NCBI GenBank assembly: GCA_014800895.1
Contig: JAAVFG010000055.1
Span: forward strand, 1-64,000
Source of the DNA: Bacteroidales bacterium
GTDB lineage: Bacteria; Bacteroidota; Bacteroidia; Bacteroidales; Muribaculaceae
Reading direction: 5' to 3'
Length of the DNA stretch: 64,000 bases
A model generated the notes under the pieces. It was not told the DNA's origin. It saw nothing but the letters and a program-made list of their open reading frames with translations, and ran no database searches. A program made the position numbers and the translations under genes. Below, piece after piece: positions 15,291 to 64,000 of this stretch (position 1 is the first letter of the stretch; the number at the start of each line of letters is the position of its first letter).

Positions 15291-18200
15291 ATGAAAATCA
15301 AAGAAGTAATATCCGCAGGCGCTTTGCTTCTGAGCGTGACAAGTTATCTGCCGGCAGCAGGAGCGGTGCCCGAAGATGGAGGCGTCTATGTCATAGCCGA
15401 TGTGACTTGGCCCGATATGTACGCCTATGTTTATGATGAGTCAAGCGGGACAGCGATTGCAAATCATGAATGGCCCGGCGAGCAGATGACAAAAGATGAT
15501 GAGACCGGTTTCTGGTATTACCGTGTGCCGGAGCATCTCCATAAGGGTCAGGCGATATTCAGCAGCACAAGGAACTCCAATCCACGCTATCCCGCCAACC
15601 AGCAGCCAGGACTTCCTATCAACGGGAAATCAATGATCTATTCTCCCGTTAATAACAGTTGGGAAGAATATGTCTATAGTGTTCCCGAGCCGGGAGATGA
15701 TATCACCTGGAGCCTGCATTTCCATAATACAGAGAATTGGGAGAACATACATGTGCATATACATGGCGGAGGTATTGATATGGAAGGAGAATTGGAATCT
15801 TTTCTTAACTCCGTAATATTTGACTATGAGTTTACAGCGCCAGAGAATGTCGCTTTGACATGTTCTTTCTATACCCTTTCAGATGGAGAGATACAGTCAT
15901 CCACCCCTTTGTTCACGGCTAAGACAGGACATGTCTACACGATAAGCGGAGATAAAGGGCTGAAATCAGAATATGATCCTAACAATGTCCTCCCGGAGAT
16001 AGAATATTGGCTTGAGCCGGCGGTGCCCACAGCAAAGGATGTGGCGCGTCTCTATTTCAACAGAGCCTACAACACGACAGGGAAACTGCGTTATTCCGAT
16101 ACGATTCATGTCCACGCCGGACTGATAAAGCAGGGAGCTGCTGATTCAGACTGGACCGGAGCGCCCGATTGGTTCGCGCCCGATGAGAAATTCTTTATGA
16201 AGCAGGACGAAAAACGTCCCGACCTCTTCTATATAGATTTTGAGCCGTCGATAGCCGAATGGTTTGGGGTCGATAAAGATCAGTCCTATTCCAAGTTGGC
16301 ATTAATCTTCCGGGATGGAGACAAGACGCAGCATGCCAATGACCAATTTCTCCCTCTGCGTGTCACACTCCCCGCAGGCGAAGGACTGGGAGCTGTACTT
16401 GATTACGAAGTGGATGATACTGACAGAGTCGTAATAAATTCGGAAAAAGGGAAGATATACCTAACTCCATGGAGTAAAGATATCGTGAAGGTATTTACGC
16501 TTCTCAACTCTGATGAAGGTCGTGAGGAGAGACGCACCATCTCCGTAATTTCAGACGAAGAGAAGGAAACGTATGAGATAGACCGAGCCTTCTTCAATAT
16601 CAATGAAGATGACCGGACCATCCGTTTCTCTATTCCTGAAGGAGTGGAGGTAGAGATCAATAAATCCACTTCAATCCTTTCATTCTTTAATCAAGGCGAC
16701 AGCTCGACTCCGGCGCTGGAGGAATTGGGAGGTCTATCCAATAAGAGAGGTAACGTCACAGTGACATTCCAGGGGATGAACGACCGCGCATTTTACGGCG
16801 GAGGTTACAACGGCAATCTCATCAACTGGGAGGGACAGACGATGCTGATGGATAATAACCAGCAGGGCAACTGGGGACAAGGTGCATCTTTAGCCCGTAA
16901 TATATGTATACCCTTCTACCTCTCCACCGAAGGATACGGAGTCTACTTCGATGATCATTATGAAGGCGCGAGAATCATACCATCGCAATATGGGAGCAGT
17001 TACAGCAGCCGCAGTCAGGATCCGATCTCATATTATTTTGTGGGAGGAGGCGATATGGAAAAGGTAATGCAGAATTACACCACTCTGACCGGTCGTCAGG
17101 CATTGCCTCCCTTCTGGGCTTTGGGCTATATCACATCCAAATTCAGTTTCAAGTCACGTCAGGAGGCTGAAAATGCCGTTAAGAGCACGAAAGATATCAA
17201 TATTCCGATTGATGGAATAGTATTCGATATCCATTGGCAGACAGGAGACGTAGGTCAGGGCACAAGCGGAATGGGACGCATCGACTGGGAGCGTTCCGCA
17301 TATCCCGAGCCGGAAGAGATGTTGAAGGGACTGAGAGAACAGAACGTGCATACAATAGCCATTACAGAGCCCTATTTCACCACCCGCAGCGGTAACTACG
17401 ATTATCTCCGCGACAACGGTTATCTCGCAGATGAGGATGTAAGTAATATGGGTTGGCTGGAAAGCAGCAAGGTAGGACTTCTCGACATCACCAATCCCGA
17501 TGCTGCACGATGGTATCAGGAGCTGTATAAAGCCCGTACAAAAGAGGGAATCGAGAGCTGGTGGCTCGACCTTGGCGAGCCGGAGCGCCACGATGCCGAC
17601 TCCCGGTATAAAGAGGGCACAAAGGAGCAGGTGCATAATGAATATGGTCTTCTATGGAATGCCGCAGCATATTCAGCTATCAAGGAGGCGCAGCCCGACA
17701 AGAGATTTATCACTATGCCTCGTGCCGGCACTTCCGGTATGCAGCGTTACAATGCCTTCCCCTGGACCGGAGATATAGCCCGCAGCTGGGCGGGACTGAA
17801 AGCGCAGGTGCCCGCTCTCGTCAGCGGAGCGATGTCCGGTATCAGTTATCTTGGTTCGGATATAGGCGGCTTCATTGACGAAGAGGTCGGCACTATCCCC
17901 AATCTCTACCGCAGATGGGTGCAGTTGGGCGTATTTTATCCCTCCATGCGTACACATTCTCAGAAATATCCCGAGGTATTCCTTCCGCAGTATGAACAGA
18001 TACGCGATGATGTGCGCGATGCGATAAATCTCCGTTACGCATATCTCCCTTATCTCTATTCGCAGTCATACGCATATACACGCTATGGCACACCGATAGC
18101 ACGCCCGGCAAACTATATGGATGAGAACAAGAGCCGACTGAAAAATGAGATAGGTGCATATTACTGGGGACCTGATATGTATGTGGCTCCCGTACTGGAT

Positions 18201-19247
18201 GAGTCAACAGTCAAAACAGTAAACTTCCCTGAAGGAGACTGGCTGGATATGAATGATTTCACCACGGTATATCGCGGAGGGTCTAAAGTGGAATACAATG
18301 CTCCTACAAATGTAATACCTCATTTCATGAGGCGAGGATCATTCATCACCCGTTACCGTCAGGATACATTCACATCTACAGCAGAGATAAAAGAGAATGA
18401 ACTTATAGTAGATTATTTCGCGACCAAGAGCGTGACAGCCGATGGAAGCGTTCTCTATGAGGATAATCATGAGGATGTGAACAGTATTAGCGACGGCTCA
18501 TATCTGCTCACCACCTTTAGCGGAAGCCTTCTGGGAGAGGGAGAGAATAAGCAGTTGGCTATCGACATAGATTATGAAGGAAACGGTTGGGAGGGTATGC
18601 CCGAGCACCGCGACATAATTATCCGTATACATGATTTCCCTCTCTCAACTGATTATGAGGGACTGTCAGCCGAGTCCATACGGCTTGAGTCCCTGGAGTC
18701 TGAACCCGAAGAGCCGGAAATTGAAGAGCCGGAAAACGGCGATGAGCAGGAGGAGACGGAAGAGCCTGAAAATAGTGAGGAGGCTCCGGCAAGAATGAAA
18801 GGTAAAGGAATACTGACCACGACTCCTTTTGTAAAGGTAAACAACGTGTCTGACCTGACCGTTATGGAGGGACATTCCTTCTATCATGATACGGAAGGAG
18901 GACATTTCTATCTTCGCATCCCCTCTGTGAAGGCTCACACTCCCTTCACGCTTACAATGGGGAATCCGGAAGATACCTCAGGTATCGGGGAGAATATCGG
19001 CGGAGGTATGACCCTGGCATGCGGAAACGGTGTGATAACTTATTCGGCTCCCGCAGGCGTAAAAGATCTGAAGCTGATATTATATAGCGTTATGGGAGCT
19101 GAGGCAGAACGCCATGTTTCGCTTGCCGCCGACGGATATGCTTCTCAGATCAGACTCTCTGTTCCGTCAGGTGTCTATATCGCAACCCTTACAGGTCGTG
19201 ACTCGACAGGGAAGAAGGTAAGCAAGACCATAAAGATAATGAAGTAA
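15291..19247 (+). CDS. Glycoside hydrolase family 31 alpha-glucosidase with N-terminal starch-binding-like modules and a C-terminal sorting-like domain
   Basis: GH31 signatures WWLDLGEPERH, FITMPRAGTSGMQRYNAFPWTGDIARSW; N-terminal MYAYVYDESSGTAIANHEWPGEQMTKDDETGFWYYRVPE; C-terminal GVYIATLTGRDSTGKKVSKTIKIMK. Confidence 0.92.
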   Translation: MKIKEVISAGALLLSVTSYLPAAGAVPEDGGVYVIADVTWPDMYAYVYDESSGTAIANHEWPGEQMTKDDETGFWYYRVPEHLHKGQAIFSSTRNSNPRYPANQQPGLPINGKSMIYSPVNNSWEEYVYSVPEPGDDITWSLHFHNTENWENIHVHIHGGGIDMEGELESFLNSVIFDYEFTAPENVALTCSFYTLSDGEIQSSTPLFTAKTGHVYTISGDKGLKSEYDPNNVLPEIEYWLEPAVPTAKDVARLYFNRAYNTTGKLRYSDTIHVHAGLIKQGAADSDWTGAPDWFAPDEKFFMKQDEKRPDLFYIDFEPSIAEWFGVDKDQSYSKLALIFRDGDKTQHANDQFLPLRVTLPAGEGLGAVLDYEVDDTDRVVINSEKGKIYLTPWSKDIVKVFTLLNSDEGREERRTISVISDEEKETYEIDRAFFNINEDDRTIRFSIPEGVEVEINKSTSILSFFNQGDSSTPALEELGGLSNKRGNVTVTFQGMNDRAFYGGGYNGNLINWEGQTMLMDNNQQGNWGQGASLARNICIPFYLSTEGYGVYFDDHYEGARIIPSQYGSSYSSRSQDPISYYFVGGGDMEKVMQNYTTLTGRQALPPFWALGYITSKFSFKSRQEAENAVKSTKDINIPIDGIVFDIHWQTGDVGQGTSGMGRIDWERSAYPEPEEMLKGLREQNVHTIAITEPYFTTRSGNYDYLRDNGYLADEDVSNMGWLESSKVGLLDITNPDAARWYQELYKARTKEGIESWWLDLGEPERHDADSRYKEGTKEQVHNEYGLLWNAAAYSAIKEAQPDKRFITMPRAGTSGMQRYNAFPWTGDIARSWAGLKAQVPALVSGAMSGISYLGSDIGGFIDEEVGTIPNLYRRWVQLGVFYPSMRTHSQKYPEVFLPQYEQIRDDVRDAINLRYAYLPYLYSQSYAYTRYGTPIARPANYMDENKSRLKNEIGAYYWGPDMYVAPVLDESTVKTVNFPEGDWLDMNDFTTVYRGGSKVEYNAPTNVIPHFMRRGSFITRYRQDTFTSTAEIKENELIVDYFATKSVTADGSVLYEDNHEDVNSISDGSYLLTTFSGSLLGEGENKQLAIDIDYEGNGWEGMPEHRDIIIRIHDFPLSTDYEGLSAESIRLESLESEPEEPEIEEPENGDEQEETEEPENSEEAPARMKGKGILTTTPFVKVNNVSDLTVMEGHSFYHDTEGGHFYLRIPSVKAHTPFTLTMGNPEDTSGIGENIGGGMTLACGNGVITYSAPAGVKDLKLILYSVMGAEAERHVSLAADGYASQIRLSVPSGVYIATLTGRDSTGKKVSKTIKIMK

Positions 19248-55940: not shown

Positions 55941-55977
55941 AAAAAAGACCTTCGCCATATGACGAAGGTCCTTTTTA
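55941..55977 (-). terminator. Intrinsic terminator
   Basis: AAAAAAGACCTTCGCCATATGACGAAGGTCCTTTTT. Confidence 0.85.
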
Positions 55978-55992: not shown

Positions 55993-58900
55993 TTAGTTAT
56001 GTTTGATAGTCAGCTGCCAGTTGCCACCGTTACGTTTAAGTGTGAATGTTACATTTCCACCGGTTGCCAGTGACATGTCGCCGCCACCGCTGGAAAGATT
56101 AACGGTTCTGTCAGTAAGTCCGGTGCCGGCACCACCTAAGTTTATTCCGCTCCAATCTGATTCGGGTCCGGAAATTTTGAAGTTCTCTGTATTCATGTTG
56201 GCTACTGTCAGAGTGAAGGTCTCATTGTCAGTAGAACTGAATTTATAAGTGTTATTGACGTTCCAGCCGCTGATACCACCTCTTAGATATATAGCATCAA
56301 CTGTCGTGGGAGTCGGAGGTGTCGGAGTGTCCAAATCATACTCATAAGTATACTCGTTAACCGGTACCACTTGCATATCACCAGTCTCAAATCCGTTACC
56401 ATGGAATTTAATTCCGGTACATCTGCTATCTATTTTAGCAGTCCAGAGACCATCTGATACCTTTTGCATATCCTGACCGGGCCAGGGATGTCCGTACTCG
56501 TTATTACCATTACTACTGTTCCAAGCGTATACCTTAACATTAGTATAGGATGCTTTTGTCTTGAAGTAGATAGTCAGCATCTCCGGTACGGGATCCGGCT
56601 CAACCGGTTCCTCCGTTGATTCTACAAATGTTACTTTTGCACTTCCGCCGCCGGGCTGATAATCGCAGACCCAAGTACCTCCGAGGTTTGTGTCCACACC
56701 GTCAATCTCGTCTCCGATAACCTTCCATCCGGTCATCGCGCTCAGACGGTTGTTGGTGCTATAGATTGTCGCGCCATTCTCGCCTTTCGACATTGTGTGC
56801 CAGATACCATCCTTATCACGGAAGGTGAAGATCACATAATAATCATTCGGGTTGGTGGTCGGAGACTCGTAAGAGAAGTAGAAGTTCTGAGTGCCACTGC
56901 CTGTACCAGCCGCATTACCCATGGTGATATAGTTACCGATAGCCTTACCGGGCCAGTTGGTCACCGCGTTCTTATTGCCATTCTCATCCAATGAGTAGAG
57001 GAATACGTGAGTAGCTCCCTGCACATTGAAGTAGGTGCGGAGGTAAGTGTTGGAGGGAACTGTCACATTCACACAACGAACAGACATCGCCCAACCTGGA
57101 GAATAGTTACGTCCTTCCACCTCGGCATTATCGTAAGAAGCGATATTACCGGAGAATTTCAGATATTTGAGCCAGTTGCCGATATGGTCTTTCTCCAGAC
57201 CGTCAGCCTGAGTAGCAGTCCAGTAATATCCGGCACGGCTGTCACCATCCTTGACGCCACTGCTATTATAATGACGGCTGCGGGGGAAGAATACTGTCTG
57301 ACCTGCGGTATTTGTGAAGTAAGTCTGATAGTAGTTGCCGGTACGGGATGTAATAAAGTTGGGGTTGTTTCGGAGAGTATTCCAAACCTCAGTACGGGGC
57401 ACTTCAAATCCGGGAGGACAAAGGTCGGTATACATCTGGGGTTCACCACCGTTATTATATTTCGCAGCTCGGTAGTAACCGCCACGAGCCTCGTTAGAAC
57501 GACCGTAATAAGTCATCTCGCTGCCGTTTACAACTGATTCAATGTAATACTCGGCGCTCGTAGCACCAAGGTTACGGTCGAGCCAGTAATATTTTCCTGC
57601 CGGACCTTCCACCACCTCATAGTAGTAGAAGAAATTCGTTTCCGACTTATCCACACGGTGTGCGGTAGAAGTAGAACGGAAATAAGCGGGATTATCAAAG
57701 AAACCGGTGTGATAGAGGTCGATTTCATAAGCAGTCCAGTTATTCTCGCCGGGCTTGGAGAGCTCGAAGCGGAGAGTACCGACCTCATAATTCCAGTTGG
57801 CTGCCACTCCATCATGTGTTACAGTGAAGTCGGCGGTGCCTGTCACATTGCTTCCTGAAGTCTTAGAGAGGGTGATGCCGGTCAGACCCTGTGTTGACAC
57901 TCGCCAGTCGTAAGCCGCGCCATCATTAAGATTCTTGAACGACAGATTGTAAGTGTAGGTCCAGCGGGCAGCCTGACCACCGTAGTTGACGGGGAAGTGG
58001 AGACCCTCGTTACGTACCTTTCCATTATTCTGCTCTACTGAGAGACCGTCGATCTTCGTATTATCAGCAATGAAAGTCCAGTAGTTGTCATTTGTAGTAT
58101 CACCGGTCCGGAATTTTTCAACACCGGTATTGTCACGGATGATAAGCTGGGCGGTGCAAAGCTCTGAAGCATCGAAGTCGCGAGTCCATCTTACAGGTAC
58201 TTCACGGGTGAGACCTTTCCATGTTACTGTAATAGTTGCGCTAAGCTCACCGGGCTCGGGAGTCCGCTCAAAGGTAACGGGAACGCGAAGAACACTACCT
58301 CTGTAACCATCTATACCTGGTATAGCCTCGCCAACATTTTCAGCTGCATTTGTTGCAGCGATGTTTCCAAACTTCAGCCAGCTGACATTAGAAGAGAGTG
58401 AGATAGCTCTATTAGCTGCATTAAGCTCTGCCTCATCCGGAGAATAAACTTTGATATAGAGATATGGACGGGTAGCATCAGTGGTAGGTGCGCCGTTATG
58501 TACTAACTGTGCGCTGACACCGAGCTCACGGCTACCGTCAGTAATCATGTTGAATGACTGAGGGGAGTAGTCATAGATAGTCGCCTTGATAAGCGAGGTC
58601 GGATTCTTGGACGCTGCGGTAGGATTAGCGTCTCCTTTACCGAGCACTTCCTCAATGATCACCTGATAGTGATGGTTGGAGAGAATATCAAGGGAGGTGA
58701 ATTTCTTTGTAGCCTCGTCGTAACTTTCAAACTCAAGACGATAGAAATAATCAGTGCCTTCGAAAGGAGCTTTCACGATCATGAAAGGACGCACCTGATT
58801 ATCACGTCCGGGATTGAGAGTGCGGTGAACATAAGCGGCGTCCTCACCGATGAAAGTAATGGATGCTGCGGAAGTAGCCTGCTCAGCATATGTCTTATCC

Positions 58901-59526
58901 AAAATCGCACCAGACACTACGCTTGAGGTCTCGGCAGTGCCATACACTTCTACGGGATAGACAGTAGTGCCGGGAGTCCATACGCCCTGCGCATTCTTAG
59001 TGCCATCCGTAACGGTCACTTTCGCTGCGTTGCGGCGGAGAGACACCAGGTTTCCGCTCTGAAGGGATGCAAGGTCAATGGAGCCTGCCATTGACATATT
59101 ATTGCCGTTGAGAAGGTCTTTAGTCTCGAGAGCAAGCAGAGAAGCCTCGGGGAGTCCCTTGAGGTTGGAGGCTGTCACTGAAGCGGGAGCGTTGGCGATG
59201 AAATAGAATTTCAAACCGCTCTTGACGCGAATATTCTGATCGAGCTTGGTGCGAAGCTGATACTGGCTGCCGTTCTGAGTCAGTTCGCTATCTGTGATAG
59301 AGTAGGGGAGAACATCCTCCACACCCTGATCGCTGAGCACGAGCATCATGATATTGCTTACCCCATTCTCGTCAGCACGGGTCTTCACTGTCTCCATCTC
59401 CGGGACGGCAAGGTTGACAGTGACCTCCCCGTCGGGACCGAAGCCCGACGGAGCGTCAAATTCATCGTAGCTGCAGGCTGTCATGGCGAGCAGCAGCGTA
59501 CTATATGTGAATAATTTCTTTATCAT
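55993..59526 (-). CDS. Fimbrial/adhesin-like lipoprotein with FISUMP-like and C-terminal starch-binding-like modules
   Basis: Lipobox LLLAMTAC; VKTRADENG; FISUMP-like YYWLDRNLGATSAEYY..LCPPGFEVPRTEVWNTL..GYYWTATQ..MSVRCVNV; WPGKAIGN and HPWPGQDMQKVSDGLWTAKI (CBM26-like); SusE/F-like C-terminus. Confidence 0.75.
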   Translation of the reverse strand: MIKKLFTYSTLLLAMTACSYDEFDAPSGFGPDGEVTVNLAVPEMETVKTRADENGVSNIMMLVLSDQGVEDVLPYSITDSELTQNGSQYQLRTKLDQNIRVKSGLKFYFIANAPASVTASNLKGLPEASLLALETKDLLNGNNMSMAGSIDLASLQSGNLVSLRRNAAKVTVTDGTKNAQGVWTPGTTVYPVEVYGTAETSSVVSGAILDKTYAEQATSAASITFIGEDAAYVHRTLNPGRDNQVRPFMIVKAPFEGTDYFYRLEFESYDEATKKFTSLDILSNHHYQVIIEEVLGKGDANPTAASKNPTSLIKATIYDYSPQSFNMITDGSRELGVSAQLVHNGAPTTDATRPYLYIKVYSPDEAELNAANRAISLSSNVSWLKFGNIAATNAAENVGEAIPGIDGYRGSVLRVPVTFERTPEPGELSATITVTWKGLTREVPVRWTRDFDASELCTAQLIIRDNTGVEKFRTGDTTNDNYWTFIADNTKIDGLSVEQNNGKVRNEGLHFPVNYGGQAARWTYTYNLSFKNLNDGAAYDWRVSTQGLTGITLSKTSGSNVTGTADFTVTHDGVAANWNYEVGTLRFELSKPGENNWTAYEIDLYHTGFFDNPAYFRSTSTAHRVDKSETNFFYYYEVVEGPAGKYYWLDRNLGATSAEYYIESVVNGSEMTYYGRSNEARGGYYRAAKYNNGGEPQMYTDLCPPGFEVPRTEVWNTLRNNPNFITSRTGNYYQTYFTNTAGQTVFFPRSRHYNSSGVKDGDSRAGYYWTATQADGLEKDHIGNWLKYLKFSGNIASYDNAEVEGRNYSPGWAMSVRCVNVTVPSNTYLRTYFNVQGATHVFLYSLDENGNKNAVTNWPGKAIGNYITMGNAAGTGSGTQNFYFSYESPTTNPNDYYVIFTFRDKDGIWHTMSKGENGATIYSTNNRLSAMTGWKVIGDEIDGVDTNLGGTWVCDYQPGGGSAKVTFVESTEEPVEPDPVPEMLTIYFKTKASYTNVKVYAWNSSNGNNEYGHPWPGQDMQKVSDGLWTAKIDSRCTGIKFHGNGFETGDMQVVPVNEYTYEYDLDTPTPPTPTTVDAIYLRGGISGWNVNNTYKFSSTDNETFTLTVANMNTENFKISGPESDWSGINLGGAGTGLTDRTVNLSSGGGDMSLATGGNVTFTLKRNGGNWQLTIKHN

Positions 59527-59576
59527 GGTTAGTTATTTTCTATTAAGTATCATTCTCAAATTAATGTTTTTTCCTC

Positions 59577-59605
59577 TTTGTAGGGACGCACCCGAGGTGC
59601 GTCCG
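59577..59605 (-). repeat. REP-like unit (inverted)
   Basis: TTTGTAGGGACGCACCCGAGGTGCGTCC. Confidence 0.85.
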
Positions 59606-59632
59606 CATTCATTAATTATCAATCGTACTTAT

Positions 59633-62422
59633 TTAAGGATTAATAGTCGCCTCATAACGCTGAGTCAGAGGATTCCAGATGAAGTTGGAGACAGATGTGG
59701 GATGCTCATTGGTCTCAATGCTGTTATATTTCACCTTCAATACTGTTCCACCTGCTTTAGTCGGAGTGAATGTGAATACTCTGTTATACATAGATCCGGG
59801 CCAAGTCTGACCTTTGGTCTTGCTTACTTCCTCAATGGTAGCGCCCGAGCCATTCACGGTCCATACCCAGCAGGTAGCGTTGGTGTTGAAGAGGATTGCA
59901 TAATTCTTGCCAACTTCAAATGTCGAGGTAGTAGTCTCATGATCACCACCGTTATTCTCCTCATCCGGATCTTCGGAAGTGAAACGTTTTGCAGCTGATG
60001 CTACGTCAAAGTAACCCTCTTTGGTAGGATAGTCGAAGAGAGCCACACCCGGCTGAAGATGCGCGGGATAACGGTTCTGACCATCAAATCCGCCATGATC
60101 GTTGGCGCGGCAGTCGGTAAACATAACAAGAGCTTTACCCGGCTCTGCCACACCTGAAAGGTCGAAATACCACCAACCGGCAGCCGCTTTCTCAGGATCG
60201 GGATCAGGAAGCATCTCGATACCGGGCCAGTTGGAAGGGATATTTGTACCTGTACAAACGGTACATGCGCCCGTTCTTGCTTTCAGTTGATCTCTATGAC
60301 CCTTCGCAAAGTCTACCTCAATATAATGCTTGGCGAAATTGGGATCTCCTTTCTGAGCCTTCCAGCTTGAATTGAAGTTGAAGAAATGGCTTGTAGCATT
60401 TACTGTGCCGGGATTGTTGGGATAGTTGTCAGCGTTTGGAGTAGTGGACCAACCCTTAAAGGCGATAGCACCTGTGAAGTCATACTCCATAGCGGCGGTT
60501 TCCTGGTCATCAGGACCCTGACCCACGATCTGACCGCGTGTACCGCCATTGGTATAGTTGAAACCGGCGGGAAGCTGGAGACACTGATATACGAAGATGT
60601 GGGGATGGCTCCAGCCCTGTGCCTTCAGGTGGATACGGTAATTATCATATGAAGTGCGGACATATAGATTGACAGTGCTCTCAATGGGGTTAGTGCCATC
60701 CATTACAGGATTACCGTTCTGATCCACACCTTTGATATGAATCTTCATGTCATGATTATCCTGCCAGAGCTCCTCCGCGCTGTTAAGGTCGGTATAGCGG
60801 ACATAGAAAGTCAACTCGCCTGTAGCCGGAACTGGGATGGGTGTGTTCTCTTCGATCTCGGTAGCGTCAGCTGCCGAGCCGCTCTGAAGTTTAAGCACCG
60901 TCGCCGCAGAAGCGGGCCAATCCACTTTGCTGATGGTGATATACTTCATATTGGTGGAGACAGGCACCGCGATAGAGTTGGCATAGTCGCCCGACTGCTT
61001 ACAAGCGTTTACGTCAATAGTGATCATCTCATCGGAGAGGATATAATCGGAGTAGTCAAAGTTGGCAACCTCGATCTTCTTCACGATTGTTCCGGCGGTA
61101 AGAGTGAAATATCTCCAATCGTCAGTTTGCTTAATAGCATTAAATTCCGAATGGTCGATTTCAGGATTTACAGTAATGATAAGTACGCCCGGACGTTCGG
61201 GATCATTCTCAACCTTGTAGATATCCTGACCCTCATATTTGGGAGATGTGAAAGTCACATCGGTATTTGATTCATATTTCAGTTCGGTATCGAAACCGGC
61301 GGCGATAGATACCGCGGTCTTATCCACCTTGAGCCAGTAGCTGCCGTTGAGCGAGCCGGCGAGAACAGAGGGAGTCCAGGGCTGAACCTCAAGATTGAAC
61401 TTACCCTCGGGAGTACCTACAAAATCATAGAACTGTGAACGCTCCACGATACGACCCTTAGCGGTATCGGTATGACCAAGAACGAGCTCCTTCTTCTCAG
61501 AGCCTACTTCCATCACCAATTTGGTGCGGTCGGTATCAGTCTGAACGAGACGCTCCGGCACATAGAACACTGTCTGCCATACCCAAGGGGTCTGCCCGTC
61601 GGGAGTCATCTCGGTGAGATTCTTGCGGTCAACATTCAAATCGTTGAGAGCGGAAGAGGAGGCATTGGCGGGGATAGCGTAGTAGCCGCCGTCAATATCA
61701 GTGCTGCCTTTACCGTCAGGAGCGGTAACATTCTCGATAAGGGAGGATGCGAGCGCATGGTCGGTAACGGTAACTTTTCCCATTACATCCTTGGGACGAA
61801 GGTCATTGAGCAGGCTCACACGCACCTTAGCCACAGCGAATCGGAGATCAGCCTTAACCTTGATTGAAGAGCCGGCAGTGACTGAAATAGTGCGGTTAGT
61901 TCCTACGGGATTGAACGTGCCGGAGCCGTTATCTACCTGCATGCGCTCTGTGGGGCATGACATCGGCAGACCGGAAGCAGCGATATCATCAGGAACAGTA
62001 GCCTGAGCGGCAAGAAGCTGCGTCTTGGTGGTATTATCACTTATAGATGAGTTGGCAACGGCAAACATCTCATAGTCGCCGTTCTCAAGATCACGACGGA
62101 CGCGATAACCTTTATAGCCCTCTACGGAGCCTGCAATCTCAGTGCCCTCAGTGAGGTCGATTACGATAGGATTCTCGCTGCCATCCTTATACATGAACAG
62201 TCGAAGATTCTTGAAAGCCGCCTCATTGCCATTGAAATCATTTACATTCCCGATAGCACGGGTGGTATAGGTCGGAGCGGAACCTTCCGGAACGTAGGGC
62301 ACGTAAATCACGAGACCCTCTTCGGAAGCATCATTCTTTCCGGGGAGCACATCATCGCTGCAGGATGCCAGAAGCGACACCGAAGCGACAAGCGCGAATG
62401 TATTTCTTATGAAAAGTTTCAT
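59633..62422 (-). CDS. Fimbrial (Mfa/FimB-like) lipoprotein with C-terminal starch-binding-like modules
   Basis: Lipobox SLLASC; TTRAIGNVND; NLRLFMYKDGSENP...; C-terminal GTNIPSNWPGIEMLPDPDPEKAAAGWWYFDLSG and TKGQTWPGSMYNRVFTFTP. Confidence 0.75.
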   Translation of the reverse strand: MKLFIRNTFALVASVSLLASCSDDVLPGKNDASEEGLVIYVPYVPEGSAPTYTTRAIGNVNDFNGNEAAFKNLRLFMYKDGSENPIVIDLTEGTEIAGSVEGYKGYRVRRDLENGDYEMFAVANSSISDNTTKTQLLAAQATVPDDIAASGLPMSCPTERMQVDNGSGTFNPVGTNRTISVTAGSSIKVKADLRFAVAKVRVSLLNDLRPKDVMGKVTVTDHALASSLIENVTAPDGKGSTDIDGGYYAIPANASSSALNDLNVDRKNLTEMTPDGQTPWVWQTVFYVPERLVQTDTDRTKLVMEVGSEKKELVLGHTDTAKGRIVERSQFYDFVGTPEGKFNLEVQPWTPSVLAGSLNGSYWLKVDKTAVSIAAGFDTELKYESNTDVTFTSPKYEGQDIYKVENDPERPGVLIITVNPEIDHSEFNAIKQTDDWRYFTLTAGTIVKKIEVANFDYSDYILSDEMITIDVNACKQSGDYANSIAVPVSTNMKYITISKVDWPASAATVLKLQSGSAADATEIEENTPIPVPATGELTFYVRYTDLNSAEELWQDNHDMKIHIKGVDQNGNPVMDGTNPIESTVNLYVRTSYDNYRIHLKAQGWSHPHIFVYQCLQLPAGFNYTNGGTRGQIVGQGPDDQETAAMEYDFTGAIAFKGWSTTPNADNYPNNPGTVNATSHFFNFNSSWKAQKGDPNFAKHYIEVDFAKGHRDQLKARTGACTVCTGTNIPSNWPGIEMLPDPDPEKAAAGWWYFDLSGVAEPGKALVMFTDCRANDHGGFDGQNRYPAHLQPGVALFDYPTKEGYFDVASAAKRFTSEDPDEENNGGDHETTTSTFEVGKNYAILFNTNATCWVWTVNGSGATIEEVSKTKGQTWPGSMYNRVFTFTPTKAGGTVLKVKYNSIETNEHPTSVSNFIWNPLTQRYEATINP

Positions 62423-62451: not shown

Positions 62452-63579
62452 TTAAAAATCAAAATCCTCCTTATCATGATTATTCCAGGGAGAAGCGGTC
62501 ACTTCAATAACGACGCCGCCTGTCGGGGGCTCATAGATATGGAAAGTATAGACGTGATTGCGGAGCACACCTGCCCAGTCGCCTGTGGAAGATGATGAGC
62601 TGTCTACTTCCTTATCTCCGTTATAGGAGGTAAATGCAATCTTGATGTTGCGCAAACCGTCTGGCATGGTATAGCTGTCCTTTGCGGTAAGGGAAATAAT
62701 CTTGCGAGCTTCGTTATTTGCGGGTACGCCGGTGAAATCACGCTCGAAGGTATAGAACTCATAAGCCGGTTTGCCATTCACCTCGGCATTAGCAGCTGAA
62801 AGAGTCTGAGTGAAAGTGTTATTGGCAGCCGCGGGTGAGTAGGGGACGAGAGTGCCGTTAAACCATGCCGCGGGCTGCGGAGTGATATAGCCTGTAAGGA
62901 GGCTCTCAAGACCAACCTTACCGATGATGCCACCCTCCACTTCATCCACGATAACGATCTTCGCCATTGCGCGGGTCATCTCGGTGACAGGAAGATTCAT
63001 CGGCGAATTATAATGGATATGATCGATATATTTCGCAAGGAAATCCTCCGAAACCTTTGCAACGCCAGCCATGGGGAAATCCTTGTCAGATGCGGGCTTC
63101 CATGCCTCCACACTTCCGCCGGCAGCTACAGTCTGCGGCCATTTGATGGTAAGGTTTGCCATATCGGCGAAGTTCTTGCCCTGAATATTGAAATCCTTGT
63201 TGGCATATTCAGGCACGGAGAAGATGCCGGTAAAGAAACCGTTCTTGTAATTCTCCTTATTGAACTTTGCAGAGACGGAAGGTCCCCAGGTGGGAGTGAA
63301 GTAAGTAGCGTTGATAGCGGTGTTGGCATTGCCTCCGCCATAGACCCAGTCTTTCTGAGTTCCGGAGCCGTCAATGTCGTAAGTGGCGAAATAGAGACGG
63401 TTCTCGTCGATAGCATCATAAGGATCGATATTCTCCCCGGCACGTGTGGCATCAGTGCGGAGAGACATCACAACGTCGAAATCTCCTTCAAGACGGTCGT
63501 TGGACATATCTTTGTCGGAGCAACCGGTAGCGAATGCCATTACCGGAAGCAGAGCTGAAATCTTAATAATCTTTTTCAT
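62452..63579 (-). CDS. Fimbrillin-family (Mfa-like) lipoprotein
   Basis: Lipobox MAFATGC; DATRAGENIDPYDA; MTRAMAKIVIVDEVEGG; WAGVLRNHVYTFHIYEPPTGGVVIEVTASPWN. Confidence 0.82.
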   Translation of the reverse strand: MKKIIKISALLPVMAFATGCSDKDMSNDRLEGDFDVVMSLRTDATRAGENIDPYDAIDENRLYFATYDIDGSGTQKDWVYGGGNANTAINATYFTPTWGPSVSAKFNKENYKNGFFTGIFSVPEYANKDFNIQGKNFADMANLTIKWPQTVAAGGSVEAWKPASDKDFPMAGVAKVSEDFLAKYIDHIHYNSPMNLPVTEMTRAMAKIVIVDEVEGGIIGKVGLESLLTGYITPQPAAWFNGTLVPYSPAAANNTFTQTLSAANAEVNGKPAYEFYTFERDFTGVPANNEARKIISLTAKDSYTMPDGLRNIKIAFTSYNGDKEVDSSSSSTGDWAGVLRNHVYTFHIYEPPTGGVVIEVTASPWNNHDKEDFDF

Positions 63580-63603: not shown

Positions 63604-64000
63604 TTATTTCCATTCGATATTGTTTACGACAACTCTCCAGTTGTTGACATAGATCTCAAAAACGAGAATATCCTCTTCGGGGCGGAGAGTGAAGTCAAGA
63701 TTGTAAGTGTCCTGACGGTCGAGATATTCCTGATCGGACATCTTGGGAGCGACAGCTTCCTTTCCTGCAAGGATGAGGTCGATGAGCTTCATGTCCACGA
63801 GCTTGATACCGCTCTCATGTAGAGTGATCTTGAGATTGGCATCGGAATTCTCCATCAGACGAGCCACATGGAACTGTGAGACACCCGCTTCGGTAGTCTT
63901 CTCCTGCTCGCCGCCCTGACCGTCAGGAAGGGGAAGCTGAGTGGATGTGTAGCTTACCGGGTTGTATTTAATCGTGGAGCCTGACACCTCATTCTTATGA
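63604..64000 (-). CDS. Fimbrial-type protein, C-terminal part (5' end beyond window)
   Basis: Ends DILVFEIYVNNWRVVVNNIEWK; the frame stays open upstream of the GTG at 63987 to the window edge. Confidence 0.6.
   Translation of the reverse strand, partial: HKNEVSGSTIKYNPVSYTSTQLPLPDGQGGEQEKTTEAGVSQFHVARLMENSDANLKITLHESGIKLVDMKLIDLILAGKEAVAPKMSDQEYLDRQDTYNLDFTLRPEEDILVFEIYVNNWRVVVNNIEWK

Follow-up and report, generated by a model that had tools for sequence, protein, structure and literature searches.

A type V pilus operon of gut Bacteroidales with predicted alpha-glucan-binding tip subunits

Do type V pili of gut Bacteroidales carry tips that hold polysaccharides? Very little is known of the ligands of gut type V pili, some of which have lectin domains, according to a 2025 review (PMC12632263), and a review of 2021 described their part in colonisation by Bacteroides as mostly unknown (PMC8551831). 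The question is raised by a locus at the end of a 64,000-nt window (the whole stretch of DNA that was analysed, contig C55), where the original prediction had read two very large lipoproteins, with fimbrial N-termini and carbohydrate-binding modules at their C-termini, as a candidate starch-adhesive pilus tip. The evidence presented here is best explained by a type V pilus, of the same kind as Mfa1 and Fim, with an alpha-glucan-binding tip, a reading that we regard as fairly probable.

The two lipoproteins are encoded by the final two genes of a five-gene operon on the minus strand (the strand of all operon features given below), which extends beyond the edge of the window and contains both a fimbrillin and a Mfa2/FimB-family anchor, as a type V pilus operon should. 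The first gene (g1) encodes a 499-aa fimbrillin (Fimbrillin_C, 1.7e-9, above the Pfam cut-off), and the second (g2; 63604..64000 in the window, whole gene C55:63604-64641) a 345-aa Mfa2-type anchor (PF08842, 4.6e-48, above the cut-off). The third (g3; 62452..63579) encodes a 375-aa adaptor or tip-base lipoprotein in the position of mfa3/fimC, to which the FimD model gave a sub-threshold match (1.4e-5). These are followed by g4 (59633..62422), a 929-aa lipoprotein and candidate tip subunit in the position of mfa4/fimD, and by g5 (55993..59526), a 1177-aa lipoprotein and candidate tip adhesin in the position of mfa5/fimE. Both are open reading frames with lipobox signal peptides (C18 in g5), and the two large lipoproteins thus stand as originally described. 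A terminator hairpin (GACCTTCGTCATATGGCGAAGGTC, then a T run) lies 3' of g5 at 55947..55970, and neither a susC/susD gene nor an amylase gene was found within the pilus operon. As a separate observation, a REP-like palindrome (GGGACGYACC-NNN-GGTRCGTCC) occurs at window positions 2159, 2200, 47703, 55245, 55889 and 59584, five of these with exact cores and one with a mismatch, with one of the copies in the g4-g5 interval; genome-wide there are 21 sites, frequently in close pairs, compared to none for the reversed control.

Five genes with roles in the same order and a Mfa2-family anchor also make up the Mfa1 fimbriae of Porphyromonas gingivalis (mfa1-mfa5), which share with the present operon a large last subunit and an arginine site near residue 50 (PMC5954841, PMC7835359). 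That last subunit, Mfa5, has 1228 aa (PMC7835359), and the earlier premise that the tips of known type V pili are small was therefore wrong. Mfa5 has both a vWA domain and, at its C-terminus, a T9SS signal, neither of which was matched in g5 by Pfam or NCBIfam models; g5 instead has FISUMP-like and CBM26 modules. Likewise, Mfa4, the protein to which the pilin fold of g4 is nearest, consists of a two-domain pilin alone (333 aa), whereas g4 has approximately 580 residues more.

The original prediction had proposed a survey of homologues, and a single genome scan with g5 returned 59 loci, the majority in Muribaculaceae MAGs, alongside a few from isolates and some from Bacteroides. All are labelled as gut-type Bacteroidales save one (L079), which is labelled Lachnospiraceae and has an operon of the same kind. 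Approximately 55 further pilus operons were recovered from gut Bacteroidales in this way, providing 54 aligned homologues of g4 and 56 of g5. Where contigs extend far enough, most loci repeat the order g1-g2-g3-g4-g5, some of them with additional g3-like genes, and the gap between g4 and g5 is mostly <100 bp.

Pfam gave no fimbrial match to the N-termini of the window's own g4 and g5, and phmmer searches with the full-length proteins against the PDB returned no match; family profiles were therefore required. The g5 profile matched solved type V pilins (PG49/Mfa4, 1.9e-12; Mfa3, 7.4e-8; also 4jrf), as did the profiles of g4 (3up6, 9.7e-6; also PG49) and g3 (4jrf, 3e-10; FimA, 8e-4). Foldseek comparisons of AlphaFold models led to the same fold, with Mfa4 of P. 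gingivalis as the best PDB match to g4 (1.1e-9; mean pLDDT 84) and the Bacteroidales fimbrial proteins 3r4r (4.3e-8) and 4gpv, with FimA 4q98 (2.5e-6), as matches to g5 (mean pLDDT 82.7); generic beta-sandwich proteins dominate these whole-model searches after the pilin matches, and the searches thus test the pilin fold and not the single C-terminal modules. By profiles and models, therefore, the fimbrial N-termini first suggested are two-domain type V pilin folds, at approximately aa 36-350 of g4 (61373..62317) and aa 33-330 of g5 (58537..59430). In two g4 homologues (L074, from Muribaculaceae Isolate-037, and L088, from Barnesiella sp. WM24) the Pfam model P_gingi_FimA scored above its own cut-off, and there FimA and CBM26 models both exceed their cut-offs within one polypeptide. 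The pilin fold of g5 is followed by a middle region of beta-sandwich strands in the AlphaFold model (approximately aa 331-620; 57667..58536), for which a weak BACON-like match was seen in homologue L122 (E 0.0032, below the cut-off). Measured from the C-terminus, the pilin motif xNHx[YF] is at a median of 60 residues in g1 and 36 in g3, against 912 in g5; the g5 chain therefore has no pilin donor strand at its end and is instead continued past the pilin fold into predicted binding modules.

A further likeness is to the FimA fimbriae (fimA-E) of P. gingivalis, the NCBIfam model of their tip adhesin FimD matching homologues of g5 at 5e-19 and of g4 at 5e-12. All of these matches remain far below the equivalog threshold (NF052322, 170 bits), the best being 68.5 bits for a paralogous g5. 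To our knowledge, no FimD contains a CBM26.

Type V pilins are lipoproteins that are cleaved after an arginine, as in Mfa1, where Rgp acts at Arg49 (PMC5954841). Candidate processing sites of this kind lie 32-34 residues beyond the lipobox in both proteins of the window: Arg55 of g4, in TYTTRAIGN (62258..62260), is kept in >90% of 54 homologues, and Arg50 of g5, in TVKTRADEN (59377..59379) and 32 residues past the lipid cysteine, is invariant in 13 and present in >90% of 56 homologues. Across the loci, a [TS]R[AGSTV] site was found in 26 of 28 g1, 26 of 28 g3, 36 of 37 g4 and 42 of 44 g5 sequences. Its median spacing from the lipid cysteine is 31-35 residues in these four families; only three of 25 anchors (g2) have such a site, at 52-54 residues. 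The anchor is a better contrast than the lipobox control (24/37), because that control is unclean: off-frame ORFs and further fimbrial genes are among its members. The subunit precursors are thus lipoproteins with an arginine processing site that the anchor lacks, a distribution to be expected if g3, g4 and g5 join the fibre while g2 remains in the membrane. One gene for a clostripain-family protease is present in the same genome.

The carbohydrate-binding part of the original prediction was borne out most directly in g5, which matched the Pfam CBM26 model at 6.4e-12 (45.9 bits, above the curated 28.1) and so belongs to the family, as does the paralogous g4 of a second operon described below (59.7 bits). 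The g4 of the window scored below the curated cut-off (3.8e-4, 21.0 bits). Four modules can be delimited. In g5, WPG2 (aa 986-1044, with Y1000, W1002 and W1015; 56395..56571) is the CBM26 above the cut-off, and among PDB sequences it matched Ruminococcus bromii Amy16 (E 1.1e-6) and Amy4 (E 0.0014); WPG1 (aa 825-945; 56692..57054), a core CBM26-like module with the aromatic pair Tyr844/Trp858, is below the cut-off (E 0.0055 as a fragment) and could be structural. In g4, a large CBM26-like module (aa 589-822; 59957..60658; E 4.8e-5 as a fragment) has an insertion that separates the Tyr612 strand from Trp732-Pro-Gly, and a C-terminal WPG module (aa 836-929, WPG at 874; 59636..59917) is poorly modelled, with pLDDT mostly 32-75. 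An Inhibitor_I42 match at the g4 C-terminus was set aside as chance, being sub-threshold and seen in one of 54 members.

Among the homologues, CBM26 was detected by Pfam in the C-terminal tails of 47 of 54 g4 and 24 of 56 g5 sequences, with best E-values of 1.5e-22 and 1.6e-18, respectively, and it is the only recurrent Pfam family across the 110 tail sequences. The g4 count is free of direct selection bias, because the loci were gathered with g5. The aromatic pairs are also conserved: position 844 of g5 is Y or F and position 858 is W or F in all 56 homologues, and positions 612 and 732 of g4 are each aromatic in 53 of 54. Tyr60 and Trp72 form the maltotriose platform of Sas20d1 (PMC9112005), and the g4 and g5 pairs appear to correspond to these residues, as matched by motif rather than by superposition. 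Since there are only 12 CBM26 matches in the whole genome, and two of the carrier ORFs lie in its two fimbrial operons, chance co-occurrence of module and pilus is excluded. Of the other CBM26 proteins in the genome, those whose partner domain can be recognised are alpha-glucan enzymes, namely GH13 amylases and a GH31 enzyme; within the window, a GH31 alpha-glucosidase-like protein with CBM26 at its N-terminus is found at 15291-19247. The CBM26 modules of R. bromii Amy16/Amy4 and Sas20, which share with g5 both a sequence match and the Tyr...Trp-Pro-Gly aromatic pair, are part of amylases or amylosome proteins, whereas here they are found on pilus subunits without an enzyme. This pairing suggests a pilus that would hold the cell to starch.

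The FISUMP-like (Fib_succ_major) domain predicted for g5 is located at aa 625-820 (57067..57654), where the match is below the cut-off in the window (E 6.2e-6 in the whole protein, 3e-7 and 31.3 bits as a fragment, against a cut-off of 33.9) and above it in homologue L122 (Pfam). A search of PDB sequences with this domain yielded nothing useful, and we know of no ligand for it. It is 59-76% identical between g5 and its five nearest homologues, compared to 33-45% for the first pilin domain, and in the comparison with L065 the identities are 76% for FISUMP, 72% for WPG1 and 42% for the first pilin domain. FISUMP and WPG1 thus form the best conserved block of g5, and WPG2 and the last domain vary among homologues; the protein is therefore built as a pilin followed by a constant head and then an exchangeable tail. 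A rival reading takes the C-terminal domain as the target of a diversity-generating retroelement (DGR), giving variable recognition rather than a fixed ligand. C-type-lectin folds are found in DGR targets (PMC8144416), and Bacteroides tip pilins are reported to be acted on by DGRs, according to work cited in a review (PMC12632263). However, the genome assembly contains no reverse transcriptase, the operon contains no template repeat, and the FISUMP block is conserved rather than hypervariable, all of which make a DGR target extremely improbable.

The last domain of g5 (aa 1070-1177; 55996..56319; low model confidence) had been described as SusE/F-like. Neither the SusE nor the SusF_SusE Pfam profile matched g5. 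What it shares with SusE-family (PF14292) lipoproteins is only their C-terminal domain, to which the final 108 residues of g5 correspond; the lipoproteins concerned belong to SusC-SusD-SusE-GH43 loci, and the g5 C-terminus also matches BT3088 (SGBPdex) with E 0.0044. A Kelch-like top match for the same C-terminus was rejected as a summed-repeat artefact. Many Muribaculaceae proteins that are secreted and lack an assigned function (L131, L132, L134, L142 and L143) contain the module too, and some of these end in a C-terminal signal of the type YFNLQGVK...GIFI... The shared SusE domain, together with the fact that g4 and g5 are lipoproteins with CBM and SusE-type modules, would fit proteins that remain lipid-anchored at the surface as glycan binders like SusE/SusF and never enter a pilus. 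SusE and SusF, however, are not pilins and are encoded with SusC and SusD; g4 and g5 have pilin folds and the arginine site, stand in an operon with fimbrillin and Mfa2 genes, and have no adjoining susC/susD, which leaves a purely surface-anchored function quite improbable.

Because the SusE-type domain is also found in GH43 (non-starch) loci, it does not point to starch, and its distribution argues that it may be a general polysaccharide-binding domain rather than a starch-specific one. Of the starch-adhesive pilus tip first proposed, then, type V tip subunits with glycan-binding C-termini find good support in the operon, the pilin fold, the arginine site and CBM26, and the adhesion to starch is a reasonable reading of CBM26 to which the SusE-type domain adds nothing. 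Several observations would also suit tip adhesins with another ligand, the WPG and FISUMP modules binding host mucin glycans, the capsule or exopolysaccharide of neighbouring cells, or a protein receptor. FISUMP, which together with WPG1 shows the highest conservation in g5, may determine the main ligand; the variable g5 tail suggests diverse ligands; the GH43 loci just mentioned lead the same way; and P. gingivalis type V fimbriae attach to other microbes and to host cells (PMC7835359). Against this, CBM26 is the one family that recurs in the 110 tails, and its aromatic pair is kept, so that a ligand other than starch is considered rather unlikely.

The preferred reading, an alpha-glucan-binding type V pilus, takes the operon, pilin folds, arginine site and modules, which are established from sequence and model, and places them in the following mechanism. 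The fimbrillin g1 would polymerise into the shaft, anchored by g2, and g3, g4 and g5 would form the distal complex. Each of these three would be exported as a lipoprotein and then cleaved at the conserved arginine, which would release it from the membrane and open its strand-exchange groove. Mfa3 links Mfa4 and Mfa5 (PMC5954841), and by analogy g3 probably joins g4 and g5. Architecture and gene position put g4 and g5 at the tip of the fibre; because glycan-binding modules replace a terminal donor strand, we infer that both would terminate the fibre and present these modules, CBM26-type in g4 and g5, with the FISUMP-like and SusE-type domains additionally in g5. The CBM26 Tyr/Trp pairs would then hold alpha-1,4-glucan chains, giving the cell a long-range tether to starch or glycogen, with a possible role in feeding. 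Tip pilins with C-terminal binding domains, some of them lectin domains, have already been described (PMC12632263); in the literature searched, for which coverage was incomplete, no type V tip with a starch-binding module was found. The parts are ordinary, and what appears to be both unusual and conserved is their combination in a type V pilus whose tips are predicted to bind alpha-glucan. The conserved CBM26 tip gives a concrete and cheap ligand prediction (starch, amylopectin or glycogen), and the question of what gut type V pili hold becomes a direct binding question. If the prediction is true, pili would stand alongside SusCD systems and amylosomes as a gut bacterial means of holding insoluble polysaccharide. 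A broader proposal, to which we give slightly less than even weight, is that Muribaculaceae and related bacteria possess type V pili of a dedicated line, in which both tip subunits would be racks of exchangeable glycan-binding modules on a constant FISUMP/CBM26 head, gripping dietary starch or glycogen at a distance for foraging and not for host adhesion.

Among 198 genomes of the family, the Mfa2 anchor was found in 125 and a relative of g5 in only 10 (single-sequence search); pili of this kind are therefore a subset of type V pili. Across the order, the g4 profile was matched in two of 294 genomes, a figure that may be an under-count, with at most two candidates scored per genome. The genome of the window itself contains a second, diverged pilus operon with the same gene order (contig C7:54525-66666; L016, L034), whose g4 has CBM26 (59.7 bits) and whose g5 has FISUMP. 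The fimbrillin gene of this second operon has an OmpA/DUF3868-like gene upstream of it, and an array of G+C-rich repeats in both orientations, with the core GCCGCGGAGCGGTCAGTCCTTGTTT, is found upstream of the operon (L016:14685-16072). Finally, at loci L078, L080 and L083, two g4-g5 pairs of a single contig are oppositely oriented and face each other.
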